From contig NZ_CP051630.1 in the NCBI RefSeq assembly GCF_012848855.1, positions 413,501 through 477,500 on the forward strand: DNA of 64,000 nt, in the 5' to 3' direction. The translations under genes were made by a program, and so were the position numbers. Under the pieces are notes generated by a model that saw only the letters and a program-made list of their open reading frames with translations, did no database searches and was not told the DNA's origin. This stretch comes from Pyruvatibacter mobilis. GTDB lineage: Bacteria > Pseudomonadota > Alphaproteobacteria > CGMCC-115125. Positions 17,881 through 52,142 of this stretch are shown here, in pieces. The number at the start of each line of letters is the position of its first letter. Positions within the stretch are counted from its first letter, which is position 1.

Positions 17881-17899
17881 GTAAGACGGCTACAAGATC

Positions 17900-18052
17900 A
17901 GGGCTGCCTGGTGCGCCAGGAGCCATATTGCTCGGGGCCTTACGGTCTCCTAGGGAGCTGTCCCTGCCTCGGCCCGTGGGCTGGGGCATCACGGCGCCCA
18001 CCTACTTATGTAGGTTCCCGGGGATCTCCGCTCCAGCGGCCAAGGCGGCCCT
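17900..18052 (+). ncRNA. ssrS: 6S RNA
   Basis: A roughly 153-base element between zapA and the 5-formyltetrahydrofolate cyclo-ligase gene, the classical 6S RNA locus. The ends pair: AGGGCTGCCTGG at 17900-17911 with CCAAGGCGGCCCT at 18040-18052 (one bulge, one G-U). Internally it folds as a long, interrupted hairpin with a central bubble region, the shape that mimics open promoter DNA and captures the housekeeping RNA polymerase. Exact 5' and 3' ends are estimated from the stem. Confidence 0.82.
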
Positions 18053-18085
18053 ACCTTGTATCCTTCTTCCTCGAAGTCCTCCGGA

Positions 18086-41778: not shown

Positions 41779-41927
41779 GATGTGCTCCTTCCGGTTGGTG
41801 TGAGCCTGGGGGAGTAACCGGGGGCGGGCGGACATGTTCCGACGGGCAGGCAGTTAACGGCCCGGTAGGCACGGCAAAAGCTTCATTTGACCTTTGAGGG
41901 GGGCTCGCCTATGTACGGCGCGGGCCA

Positions 41928-41964
41928 CGCTTCCCCAACGAAGCGCGACCCTCTGCAAGGAGGG
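41928..41964 (+). promoter_or_regulatory. serC-type RNA motif (tandem hairpins over the RBS)
   Basis: Two adjacent hairpins just before serC: CGCTTC/GAAGCG at 41928-41933 and 41940-41945, and CCCTC/GAGGG at 41949-41953 and 41960-41964. The second buries the GGAGGG ribosome-binding site ten bases before the ATG. This matches the description of the alphaproteobacterial serC leader motif (tandem hairpins near the serC start), a candidate cis-regulatory RNA. Confidence 0.7.
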
Positions 41965-41973
41965 AGATACACC

Positions 41974-45016: not shown

Positions 45017-46305
<1,289 letters not shown>

Positions 46306-46309
<4 letters not shown>

Positions 46310-47238
46310 TCATCACTACGCGATGACTTCAACAAGCTTGCCAACATGCTTCTGAGTGCTTCCGAGTCGGAAGTGGATCGCAGTAGCTGTGGTGATATTG
46401 TCAGTTGTGATGGTTGCTCTACGAACGACCTCGAAGACTTGTATAAGCCAATAAGATCTTTTTCTTCCTTTACGTCGGTCTGTGTAACCGAGCCATTCAT
46501 CTTCTTAATAGCTTCTGTCAGCTTGTTGGACAGTTCGACTTTTCTACGGGTACCGACCCTTTCAGAAAACTCGTGCTTCAGCCAATCATTGAGGATTGGC
46601 GCACCATCAAACATTATTCCGTAGTCTTGATCTCTGGTGACAATCATCACATGTGATTTGTTTGGGCAATTCTGCGCGCAGTGAATGATCCATTCCCAGT
46701 TTACGGCATCACCGATGGATGTGTCGTTCGCCTTCCGTGGCGGATAACCTAAGGAGAACCTCTTTCTTGCTAAGCTTCTAATCTGAAAACGTCGTTTGTC
46801 GGGGCGCCGCAGATTGTACGGACTGTCGTTGGAAAAAATTCGTTTGAGAGACTGATAAACAGGATCGTGTTTCGATGGGTCTCGCAATACTTTCTCGATC
46901 TTGTCTCTTACCTTCTTGAGCTGTTTCTCAGATTCAGTGGTAGCCTTCCTGTACATCTTGAAAGGCTGATAATCCGTGACTATTGGAGGCGCGTTTCTCT
47001 GCGGGCTTTTTGCAAGATTTTTAATGGCATCCTCATGTATGACTTTTTGTCTATTCCTGAGAAATTCCGCCCAGACTTGATCCAGAATGATGATTACGCC
47101 TTTATGTTGCTCTAATGCCTTGAGTTGTCGTTCAGCGCTTGGACCGCCGAGCCGGTAGAAATCTAGCAACACATTTGTGTCAATGAAGAACAGCCAATTT
47201 TCGGCTTTTGCTCGCTTTGCCATATCGAATGCAACCAT
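46306..47238 (-). CDS. PIN-like domain protein (DUF4935 type)
   Basis: A 310-residue protein that starts with a PIN nuclease-like domain: [12 protein letters not shown] (D20), W-A-E-F-L-R-N-R (E58), I-G-D-A-V-N-W (D177) and V-T-R-D-Q-D-Y (D203, D205) are candidate metal ligands. This pattern fits DUF4935 (PIN_8) proteins, presumed single-strand RNases. The gene is plainly AT-richer than its neighbours and uses many A/T-ending codons, a sign of transfer. It is not paired with an antitoxin here. Its stop overlaps the purA stop. Confidence 0.78.
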
Positions 47239-47285: not shown

Positions 47286-48371
47286 CTACTTCGCCACCAC
47301 CAGCGGGCCTGCTTCTACGCCGAGGGCGCGTAGCCGTTCCTGCCGGATGTCTTCGATGACCGGGGCGAGGACTTCCTCGTGGAAGCGGTCGCAGCCGATG
47401 CAGAGGTTCTGGTAGTCGTTGCCCTTGGGGTCTTTGGTCTTTGACTTTTCATAAAAGGTGCCGACGTCCCAGCCGTGGCTGAGGCCCATGCGTTCCGGGT
47501 GGCCCATATTGATGGCTTCAAAGGCGGGGTGGCCGACGAGACTGTCGAGGATGTCGGTCAGCTTTTCTTCGGTGACATTGCCGATGGGGGCCTTGGTCTT
47601 GAGGCAGCAGGGGAAGACGTCGCCTGTGGGGTCGATGGAGACTTCGGAGCCCGCATAGCGGTGGTTGAGGAAGCCCAAGCCGCCGGACCAGGCGTTGCAG
47701 AAGTTGTCCTTCAGGGTGGCGCGGCTGAGGCCGTTGTCCCAGGCGCGGCCGCGGGGCCAGATCTTGCCGATCCAAGCGTCTTCGGTAGCGCCGAAAAAGA
47801 GATAGGTCGGCCCGTCATTCTTCTGCCATTCGCCGAAACCTGTGCGGGCTGAATGCTCCGTATAGCCCGTTTTTTCGAACATCGTGTGCAGCTTGTCGAT
47901 CAGCGGCTTGCGCTTGTCGCCTTCCATGCCGACGTGGAAATCATCCATGCCGGAAATGGCGATCATGCGGATGCCGCGCTCGCGGAGGTCTTCCAGTATC
48001 TGTTCGGTAACGAGGTCGCCGGTGGTCTGGATCGAGATATCAACGCCGCCCTGGTTGCGGTATCTGGCGTTCAGCGCCTCCAGCACCGGGTAAAGCACGC
48101 GCTCGCGGACGGGGTCGAGCAGCACCTCGCCGCCGGCCATGATGATGCGGCCGCGGCGCTCCTTGAAGCCCGCTTCGCTGTCATCGGGCGCGGACGTGTC
48201 GAGATAGGTCATCCGCTCGGGCAGGTTGGCGATGATCCGGGGGAAAGCGTCCTCCGCCTCGCGCACCACGGCCTCCAGCGCGCCGCGCACATAGGGGCGG
48301 AAGCGGTCCTCATAGCAGTGGGTGCATTTGCGGTGGCAGGCCCAGTTGAGGACCCAGTAGATCGATTCCAT
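47286..48371 (-). CDS. Radical SAM protein with SPASM-like C-terminus
   Basis: A 361-residue iron-sulfur enzyme. The radical SAM cluster cysteines are C12, C16 and C19 in C-H-R-K-C-T-H-C, very close to the N-terminus. A G-G-E motif (M-A-G-G-E-V-L-L-D-P) follows near 90. The C-terminal region has C-C-L-K-T and C-I-G-C pairs that could hold an auxiliary cluster as in SPASM enzymes. Substrate unknown; SPASM proteins often modify peptides, but no precursor peptide gene is evident next to it. The start at 48371 is chosen because the longer frame to 48689 would run across the thiC riboswitch on the other strand. Confidence 0.82.
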   Translation of the reverse strand: MESIYWVLNWACHRKCTHCYEDRFRPYVRGALEAVVREAEDAFPRIIANLPERMTYLDTSAPDDSEAGFKERRGRIIMAGGEVLLDPVRERVLYPVLEALNARYRNQGGVDISIQTTGDLVTEQILEDLRERGIRMIAISGMDDFHVGMEGDKRKPLIDKLHTMFEKTGYTEHSARTGFGEWQKNDGPTYLFFGATEDAWIGKIWPRGRAWDNGLSRATLKDNFCNAWSGGLGFLNHRYAGSEVSIDPTGDVFPCCLKTKAPIGNVTEEKLTDILDSLVGHPAFEAINMGHPERMGLSHGWDVGTFYEKSKTKDPKGNDYQNLCIGCDRFHEEVLAPVIEDIRQERLRALGVEAGPLVVAK

Positions 48372-48490
48372 GGCGCGTCCGGAAAGTGAACCAGTCCAGT
48401 CCGCAGCATGTGCGGGCGGTGGCGGGGGGTCAAATAACGGGTGGGTGAGGGGTTTTCGCGGGGGGCAAACGGAGTCACACTGCGGGCGTT

Positions 48491-50593
<2,103 letters not shown>

Positions 50594-50596
50594 GGG

Positions 50597-51337
50597 CTAA
50601 AAGAGTTCTTGCTGTGCCATTTCATCGACCCGGAGAACGCCTACAAGAAGCCATTGATCACTTCTCTTGCTATGCGTTCCTAGTGCGAAGGCTATGCCCC
50701 GCGACGCGTATTCGTTCTCATACGTTTGCTTGAGCGACTGCAGCGCTGCAGCTTCTCCGTAGGCCTTGCGTCTCCTGAAGAATGCGGCTGACGTCTCCCA
50801 ATCATCACATGTATGGGTATGTGTTTTGCCGTCGGGACTTTGCCATTTGAAACAAAACTCGAATGGACATGGTTCGACCGGTTTGACGTCGTTGTTATCG
50901 AACATGGAAAGCTGGTTTGCGAGGGCGGCGTGACGGATGCGCTCCTGCGCAATTGTTGTGCTGCTCTTCCTGCTCCAACTCAAATTTACATCAGCTGGTC
51001 TGATGAGCGTAAGGGACTCTCCGCGCGACGCAGCTTCTTCCGTACTTTCTCGAAACAAGGGCGCGACAAACCGTGCTCTCTCGTTGGGTGTAAGCTTGCC
51101 GACGACTCTGATCGACTCGGGAATTGCTTTCTGGCTTTCTTTCCTCCGATCATCCGAAGGAGGTACGTATGAGTACTTTATCCAAGACCAGCGTGCGAAC
51201 CTTTGATCATCTTGGAGTATTCGGTACGGAACCGGGTATTGCCGTCTCCACTTACGGTCCAACCCAACGCCGGCACAGCAAACCGTCTCAAAGTAGCGGC
51301 TGCTTCTATGTGGGAGCGCTTTAACTAGCACTACCAC
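50597..51337 (-). CDS. Conserved protein of unknown function paired with DUF488
   Basis: A protein of about 246 residues, not recognised as a named domain. Its N-terminus, V-V-L-V-K-A-L-P-H-R-S-S-R-Y-F-E-T-V-C-C-A-G-V with R-R-Q-Y-P-V-P-Y-R at 31-39 and W-S-W-I-K-Y near 50, resembles a widespread family that I recall as often adjacent to DUF488 genes. The middle is charged; C157, C162 and C177 are scattered. The start is set at GTG 51337, just after the DUF488 stop; a TTG at 51418 would overlap DUF488 by 68 bases. Base composition is AT-richer than the chromosome around it. Confidence 0.6.
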   Translation of the reverse strand: MVVLVKALPHRSSRYFETVCCAGVGLDRKWRRQYPVPYRILQDDQRFARWSWIKYSYVPPSDDRRKESQKAIPESIRVVGKLTPNERARFVAPLFRESTEEAASRGESLTLIRPADVNLSWSRKSSTTIAQERIRHAALANQLSMFDNNDVKPVEPCPFEFCFKWQSPDGKTHTHTCDDWETSAAFFRRRKAYGEAAALQSLKQTYENEYASRGIAFALGTHSKRSDQWLLVGVLRVDEMAQQELF

Positions 51338-51350
51338 ATGATCATTGCTC

Positions 51351-51809
51351 TTACGCTGCGGCCCTTTCAAGGCGACGTACTCCGAGGTGTCGAGTCTTTG
51401 TGCACAACCTAGACTCAACTATTTCGGATACGATCTTGCGGTGGCAAGTCTTTTCGTCTCGCTCATAGCAAAGCAAGCAAACGCTTCTTCCAGATGCGAT
51501 CGAAGAGATCCTGTCTATCCCCTCTTTGGCGCTGTTTGATCTCAGTACACCATTGAAGACCCGGCGAAACTCTTTCCAGTCGCCGCGGCGTGCGGCGTCC
51601 CGACCCTGTTTTGGGTCTCCCAACTCTCTTAGATGGATGTACTCAATCCCGGCATCTGCAAGCGCCTCGCTTAAAGCCGTCTTGGAGAACCCCTTTCGAC
51701 GGGACTGAGCGCGCTCACGTATATCAATAAGCACTTCGATCCCAGCTTCACGCATCGTCGAGATGAAGTCCTCCAAAGAGGCGCCTTCGTAACCAATCGT
51801 GCTGAGCAT
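51351..51809 (-). CDS. DUF488 family protein
   Basis: A 152-residue protein with the DUF488 pattern: T-I-G-Y-E-G-A-S-L-E-D-F at the start, V-L-I-D-I-R near 27-32, G-F-S-K, Y-I-H-L-R-E-L-G-D-P-K, and V-C-L-L-C-Y-E-R-D-E-K-T-C-H-R at the end, whose Cys/Glu/His residues look catalytic or metal-binding. The biochemical function is unknown. It is immediately upstream of the partner gene, forming a two-gene unit that looks foreign by composition. Confidence 0.82.
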   Translation of the reverse strand: MLSTIGYEGASLEDFISTMREAGIEVLIDIRERAQSRRKGFSKTALSEALADAGIEYIHLRELGDPKQGRDAARRGDWKEFRRVFNGVLRSNSAKEGIDRISSIASGRSVCLLCYERDEKTCHRKIVSEIVESRLCTKTRHLGVRRLERAAA

Positions 51810-51972
51810 TGTACTTCCCCGGCCAACTCAATTGTATGGAATGGCCAATTAGTTAACAAAAAGCAACCGTGCGGCTCTGGTGGGGTGGCTTGGTACGTTT
51901 TCGCGCTTGTCAAAATCGGCAAATCACCTCAGCCTCAATGGCGGTTTCAACGTATTGAAAGGAGGTGATCCA

Positions 51973-52053
51973 ATGTCGAGTGTCACGCAGCGGGGCTTTG
52001 GGTCCTTGTCGGTCGCGGGTCTATTTGGGGCAGCCTCTGAGGGGGTCCGCTAG
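51973..52053 (+). CDS. 26-codon ORF with a near-perfect extended Shine-Dalgarno
   Basis: Begins at ATG 51973 and encodes a 26-residue peptide, M-S-S-V-T-Q-R-G-F-G-S-L-S-V-A-G-L-F then G-A-A-S-E-G-V-R, ending in TAG. GAAAGGAGGTGATCCA at 51957-51972 is complementary over about 16 bases to the 3' tail of alphaproteobacterial 16S rRNA, far more than any other gene here. The frame stays open for 12 codons past the TAG (P-E-V-L-L-A-L-G-F-P-P-R, stop at 52090-52092). A terminator follows. It could be a leader peptide, a tiny protein or a ribosome-engaging RNA. It is not an artefact of a larger gene. Confidence 0.55.
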   Translation: MSSVTQRGFGSLSVAGLFGAASEGVR

Positions 52054-52101
52054 CCGGAAGTGCTTTTAGCCTTGGGGTTTCCACCCCGCTGAAGTCACGG
52101 G

Positions 52102-52142
52102 AAAGGGCCGTGCCTGGCAGAGCGCCGGGGCGGCCCTTTTTT
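52102..52142 (+). terminator. Terminator after the 26-codon ORF
   Basis: AAAGGGCCG at 52102-52110 pairs with CGGCCCTTT at 52131-52139, with further pairing possible inside, and is followed by a six-T run. It ends a short transcript that would include the small ORF, or acts as an attenuator before the methyltransferase gene 32 bases downstream. Confidence 0.8.

Follow-up and report, generated by a model that had tools for sequence, protein, structure and literature searches.

The window, i.e. the whole stretch of 64,000 nucleotides from Pyruvatibacter mobilis that was analysed, carries a two-gene insert between thiC and the genes to its right, in which a DUF488 gene is followed on the minus strand by the gene for a partner protein. 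The features of the locus, in window coordinates, are the following:

51351 to 51809, minus strand: DUF488 gene (protein P0002), 152 aa, PDC-M19A-like, a predicted PTP/rhodanese-like cysteine enzyme
C114, E116 and C122-H123-R124 of P0002: key residues of the DUF488 gene product, in the C-terminal motif
50597 to 51370, minus strand: partner gene (protein P0001), about 257 aa from a likely TTG start, PDC-M19B-like, with predicted tandem OB folds
50597 to 51418, minus strand: longest open reading frame of the partner, 273 aa from TTG 51418
50595 to 51904, no strand: accessory insert by comparison with congener G003, which has 33 bp at this site
51831 to 51859, minus strand: promoter-like hexamers upstream of DUF488 (TTGTTA-17-TACAAT, 9/12; a consensus match only)

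Both reading frames were confirmed at these coordinates and on the minus strand. The first-pass annotation had described them as abutting genes with a probable GTG start of the partner at 51337; the overlapping or abutting arrangement stands, while the start is probably TTG 51370, which fits better because homologues of the partner begin about 10-20 residues ahead of a conserved VLILVKA block in the alignment and a GGAG can be read from the sequence about 10 nt upstream of this TTG. Started at TTG 51370, the partner would share 20 bp with the stop end of the DUF488 gene. The earlier description of the pair as an AT-rich insert also holds on both counts. The GC contents of the partner and DUF488 genes are 0.523 and 0.536, whereas thiC reaches 0.633 and the gene to the right 0.678 (GC3: 0.55 and 0.575 versus 0.846 and 0.76), and the insert overall has a GC content of 0.53 between flanks of 0.63-0.68; furthermore, the stretch that separates the thiC end from a conserved element (window 51905) measures about 1.31 kb in the window and only the above 33 bp in the congener.

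Several other features of the window were recorded in passing. An element at 51949-52136 (plus strand), about 86% conserved in the congeners G001 and G003, gives a weak match to the Caulobacter sRNA CC2171 (RF01867, 30.5 bits, cut-off 75) and holds AAAGGAGGTGATCC right before the ATG of a 26-aa reading frame, largely conserved in all three. A TPP riboswitch lies upstream of thiC (48487-48597, plus strand), a 6S RNA at 17898-18055 and a serC leader at 41918-41969. Another likely accessory insert is formed by a PIN-domain gene (46306-47238, minus strand; GC 0.454, PIN_12 4.2e-21) between the genes at 45017-46309 and 47286-48689.

In Pfam, P0002 belongs to DUF488 (PF04343, 6.3e-33, 114.4 bits versus a curated cut-off of 22.2) and also matches PF22751 (DUF488-N3a, the ‘active DUF488-N3’ model) at 1.2e-11, and P0001 has no Pfam or NCBIfam match. 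Against PADLOC, P0001 matches PDC-M19B (PDLC04508, 1.8e-39 over residues 26-273) and P0002 matches PDC-M19A (PDLC04505, 8.5e-31) as a short form without the N-terminal extension, and the two subunit types are both present and adjacent in the window. Membership of the pair in PDC-M19, a named candidate defence system, is well supported by these profile matches, since both proteins match PDC-M19 subunits. In PHROGs, P0001 matches phrog_25907, of unknown function. According to the accessible part of PMC12988326, PDC systems stem from a guilt-by-embedding approach and most of those in its core set still await validation; our literature search for ‘PDC-M19’ returned no paper naming the system and no phage-challenge results for it. 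Long DUF488 proteins (about 290-340 aa), whose N-terminal domain of some 150 aa is uncharacterised and which are likewise paired with the partner, were seen at L006, L007, L009, L095 and other loci.

The association of the two genes was surveyed from the side of the partner, whose relatives were collected as the best 80 of 82 in IMG/VR and the best 80 of 196 in GTDB species genomes. A DUF488 reading frame lies within 250 bp of the partner in 154 of these 160 loci, which bears out the habit, ascribed to the partner's family in the first-pass annotation, of occurring near DUF488 genes; the supposition that the two are rarely adjacent elsewhere is wrong. The idea of a two-component system is upheld by this adjacency together with the match of both proteins to PDC-M19 subunits. 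Among the 154, DUF488 is upstream and co-directional in 137 (a class with overlapping reading frames, the window pair being co-directional and overlapping or abutting), downstream on the opposite strand in 16 and downstream and co-directional in one. As for the six exceptions, the partner is at or near a contig end in four (L112, L118, L174, L177), it is split in L115, with DUF488 361 bp away and tail to tail, and at L168 no DUF488 was found at the locus; the tail-to-tail loci, L115 included, thus number 17 of 160. That a single partnership is kept in two main gene orders speaks for a joint function and against a frozen operon. Trees and the mirror-tree analysis were based on 118 of 151 full-length pairs, near-copies having been removed. 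Across these 118 non-redundant pairs, the distances of the two proteins correlate with r = 0.76, the highest of 500 permutations giving 0.13; for the short pairs in co-directional order (n = 88), r is 0.69. In none of the 160 loci are DUF488 and partner naturally fused into a single reading frame. The converse pairing fails, as P0002-like DUF488 proteins are found in 156 plasmid records and the partner in 24.

The pair is patchily distributed, occurring in 6 of 96 relatives, 11 of 385 genomes of the class and 10 of 398 of the phylum (the source genome counted each time). The single DUF488 of the source genome is the window gene, and both the pair and DUF488 are absent from all three congeners searched. 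The pair is also found on 24 plasmids, in 7 records of temperate Gordonia phages and on 82 IMG/VR stretches. In phage Nymphadora it forms genes 43 and 42, with the immunity repressor on one side and the integrase side on the other; such genes are missing from this position in the related phage Kita. The HipA toxin label of Nymphadora gp42 (NC_031061 / KU963255) was rejected, the protein being DUF488 (1.2e-29). Among loci with at least 3 kb of flanking sequence, 148 of 149 have a pair that is richer in AT than the DNA around it (76/76 viral, 72/73 genome). At the ends and in the surroundings of the window insert, no flanking direct repeats, tRNA or integrase were seen. At the level of sequence, the survey thus establishes that the two proteins form one unit and travel jointly as cargo rich in AT.

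Two small adjacent genes, found on plasmids and in prophages and with overlapping frames in the co-directional class, could also be read as a toxin-antitoxin or addiction pair, and one Nymphadora record does name gp42 a HipA toxin. Nevertheless, this ‘HipA’ protein is DUF488, and the tail-to-tail loci place the two genes on opposite strands, so that the pair can do without co-transcription. Both proteins are, moreover, strictly conserved with enzyme-like or binding-like folds, and the partner, at 250-280 aa, has no resemblance to known antitoxins that could be found; a toxin-antitoxin pair is accordingly held to be highly improbable.

Structure prediction adds to the picture for both proteins, for neither of which was a convincing sequence relative found in the PDB. 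The partner model (pLDDT 94.2, 118 sequences) shows numerous strands in an OB-fold arrangement. By Foldseek its best match is CST (6w6w, 1.1e-4), followed by baculovirus LEF-3, the Oxytricha telomere-end-binding protein and Teb1, while the VIA comparison of residues 1-105 gives PriB (Z 8.8, rmsd 2.8, 83 aa), RecO (Z 8.4, 3.1, 90 aa) and SSBs (Z about 7.5). The first 105 residues thus answer to an OB fold in the predicted model. The second half is less certainly OB-like, as judged from its strands and from hints of DuOB in relatives: against the Pfam DuOB family (PF22557, cut-off 27 bits) the window protein has no match and two relatives reach 18.6 and 18.7 bits. The nucleic-acid link proposed in the first-pass annotation is in agreement with this predicted likeness to OB-fold, ssDNA-binding proteins. 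In a 21-row alignment, P36, C47, R59, P62, D90, R92, E94 and S95 are invariant, as are Q169, D206-W207-E208 and G247 (P0001 numbering), and the DWE motif is kept in 118 of 118 non-redundant partners; the high conservation of residues such as D90-x-R92-x-E94 and D206-W-E208 suggests a ligand or active site in the partner besides binding. Zinc binding was rejected as a general feature of the partner, C-x2-5-C-x0-2-G-H being present in only 7 of 118 pairs and absent from the window protein.

For DUF488 (pLDDT 93.6, 110 sequences), Foldseek gave no match under 0.001. The VIA lists, in which the absence of other families carries no information, include the laforin dual-specificity phosphatase (DSP; Z 9.1, rmsd 2.6, 113 aa), KAP (Z 8.8, 2.6, 110 aa) and SsoPTP (Z 8.7), and the methyltransferases CbiL (Z 9.7) and diphthine synthase (Z 8.8) score as well as these phosphatases. 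The catalytic-looking C-terminus remarked on earlier (C-Y-E and C-H-R) is real: C-x-E-x5-C-H-R, at a constant length of 11 residues, is invariant in all 118 non-redundant paired DUF488 proteins. The aligned ranges alone (KAP, with Cys140 named in the entry title) place C114 close to the catalytic cysteine of the phosphatases. The C-x5-R P-loop of PTPs was not found; the spacing is C114-x9-R124 in 118 of 118 pairs. DUF488 is predicted, from a modest fold match of its model, to be a cysteine enzyme with a PTP/rhodanese-like fold and an enlarged catalytic loop. The rhodanese-phosphatase superfamily is reportedly the subject of a 2020 paper by Burroughs and Aravind. Since the partner, of predicted tandem OB folds, almost invariably has a DUF488 beside it, nucleic acid is the likely substrate of DUF488. 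This is of wider relevance, as DUF488 occurs widely, in 6 of 14 control genomes, and its Pfam entry has no assigned activity; the few invariant residues of DUF488 and the partner provide targets for mutagenesis.

The site beside thiC is occupied differently in the congeners. In congener G001 the same slot holds about 1.6 kb with the gene for a reverse transcriptase of 525 aa (Drt8 match, 2.3e-94):

L122 1219 to 2796, minus strand: Drt8-type reverse transcriptase of congener G001, in the slot of the window's DUF488 pair

The comparison covers the two congeners with the region available, one empty (G003) and one with Drt8 (G001); in G002 (81% complete) no match to the flank was found. Drt families were unmatched among 126 control reading frames taken from arbitrary places in seven genomes. 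At a Rhodobiaceae locus, the nearest to the window in the tree (L142), the pair sits at the same thiC position with shared synteny and a ThiC 80% identical, and the window copy may therefore be an old resident and not a recent arrival. A more distant partner (37%) was found at L196, where some 260 bp separate the pair from a thiC in convergent orientation. The thiC slot may be old and re-used, and, holding the pair, Drt8 or nothing across three congeners, it provides a natural comparison.

A host housekeeping pair for nucleic-acid repair or RNA-end processing would draw on this thiC-side position in common with L142, on the wholly chromosomal nature of the window's clade and on the OB folds common to RecO, PriB and SSB. 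Against it stand the patchy occurrence (6/96, 11/385), with absence from the three congeners searched, and an AT-richness that is met almost everywhere in genes common on plasmids and viral contigs, so a housekeeping pair is considered improbable.

The first-pass annotation had also looked to a neighbourhood survey and to defence islands. Adjacency emerged clearly from the survey (154/160), while defence islands did not: with the nearest two reading frames on each side taken from 60 genome loci (139 of 240 used), PADLOC found no enrichment of defence genes over random genes (139 neighbour versus 126 control reading frames), the matches at 1e-10 among the 139 comprising one member per listed family and the controls being similar. 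The pair usually stands alone, with a phage integrase in 3 and a resolvase in 2 of the 139. For the viral side, 140 of 153 neighbour reading frames from 51 loci were used, near-duplicates and very long frames being dropped. Across the best 80 loci of each kind, a ParB-methyltransferase gene (in Pfam, N6_N4_Mtase with a weak ParB_N) immediately precedes the pair, in the same direction, in 21 viral and 6 genome loci. The recurrent order of ParB-methyltransferase, DUF488 and partner was seen in alphaproteobacterial phage-like contigs (L045, L055, L056, L206 and others), and three viral loci of the ParB-methyltransferase clade also have a terminase downstream. On the Sulfolobus plasmid pSOG1 (L221 3398-5820, plus strand), a ParB_N-HTH-DUF488 fusion is followed by the M19B partner; a 168-aa protein after this partner looks PD-(D/E)xK nuclease-like by eye, without Pfam support.

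As the pair follows a ParB-methyltransferase in one phage clade, a phage-serving role or DNA modification also fits. In a DNA- or RNA-modification module of this kind, the partner would present nucleic acid and DUF488 would install or remove a group (e.g. sulphur- or phosphate-linked), often shielding the mobile element from host restriction. The upstream methyltransferases, the pSOG1 fusion beside the partner and the CTP binding described for an archaeal ParB-fold protein fused to DUF488-HTH in the accessible part of PMC12704722 are all in its favour. Nevertheless, the association is concentrated, 12 of 13 non-redundant ParB-methyltransferase rows falling in one 24-row clade and one (L101) being distant, whereas the window's 21-row clade (support 100/100) is wholly chromosomal, with no viral contig and no ParB-methyltransferase; the window pair itself has no adjoining methyltransferase or ParB, and its slot is shared with a defence reverse transcriptase. 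A modification module is retained as a possible, if unlikely, reading because of its links to ParB and methylation.

Defence is the best reading of the pair's function and a probable one, on circumstantial evidence. The defensive role raised at the outset agrees with the PADLOC candidate listing, with carriage on phages and other mobile elements and with the Drt8 slot, and it draws no help from the nearest neighbours, which are not defence-enriched. The reading of the window pair as a chromosomal member of the candidate system PDC-M19, and as a mobile module of two genes that acts in conflict between host and phage or plasmid, has in our estimate about an even chance of being right. Under such a defence, the partner with its predicted tandem OB folds would recognise single-stranded or otherwise abnormal nucleic acid and bring DUF488 to the nucleic acid of the invader, where DUF488 would attack a phosphate or sulphur-type group and so damage or mark it. 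More speculatively, and rather doubtfully, the two proteins could together carry out a nucleic-acid chemistry other than methylation or known phosphorothioation, the tandem-OB protein presenting a single strand to a two-cysteine, PTP-like DUF488 that alters backbone or bases, hosts using it against invaders and some phages, together with ParB-methyltransferases, on their own DNA.

Comparison with known systems places the pair closest to PDC-M19, a phage defence candidate of PADLOC-DB 2.0.0, both subunits of which are matched and adjacent in the window. M19B is covered over nearly its full length, whereas M19A is matched only through its C-terminal DUF488 part, as the PDC-M19A models (234-294 aa) have an extra N-terminal part that the short window form lacks. 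Within the Pfam DUF488 families (PF04343, PF22751), the window protein lies above the cut-off and carries the full C-x-E-x5-C-H-R motif, but most members occur without a partner and the window DUF488 has one. The PTP and dual-specificity phosphatases, of rhodanese-like fold, resemble the DUF488 model through laforin DSP, KAP, SsoPTP and DUF442; they differ in that the DUF488 loop is C-x9-R and not C-x5-R, with a second cysteine and a histidine, and CbiL-type proteins are equally similar. The partner resembles tandem-OB ssDNA binders (CST, TEBP, LEF-3, Teb1), in that Foldseek and VIA both put OB-fold nucleic-acid binders at the top for it; the partner has no sequence relatives in the PDB, however, and its conserved residues suggest more than plain binding. 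In the accessible part of PMC6426606, CarolAnn gp43/gp44 and lambda RexAB, which serve in prophage defence, are two genes beside a temperate-phage immunity repressor, as are Nymphadora gp43/gp42, but the CarolAnn proteins are a membrane protein with four predicted TM segments and a DUF4747-like protein, unrelated to the pair. CarolAnn gp43/gp44 were thus rejected as homologues, being of other families. PDC-M19 was already known as a candidate, of which the window pair is a well-supported member; the evidence on the pairing, the mobility, the sharing of a slot with Drt8 and the likely folds is what the present analysis adds.
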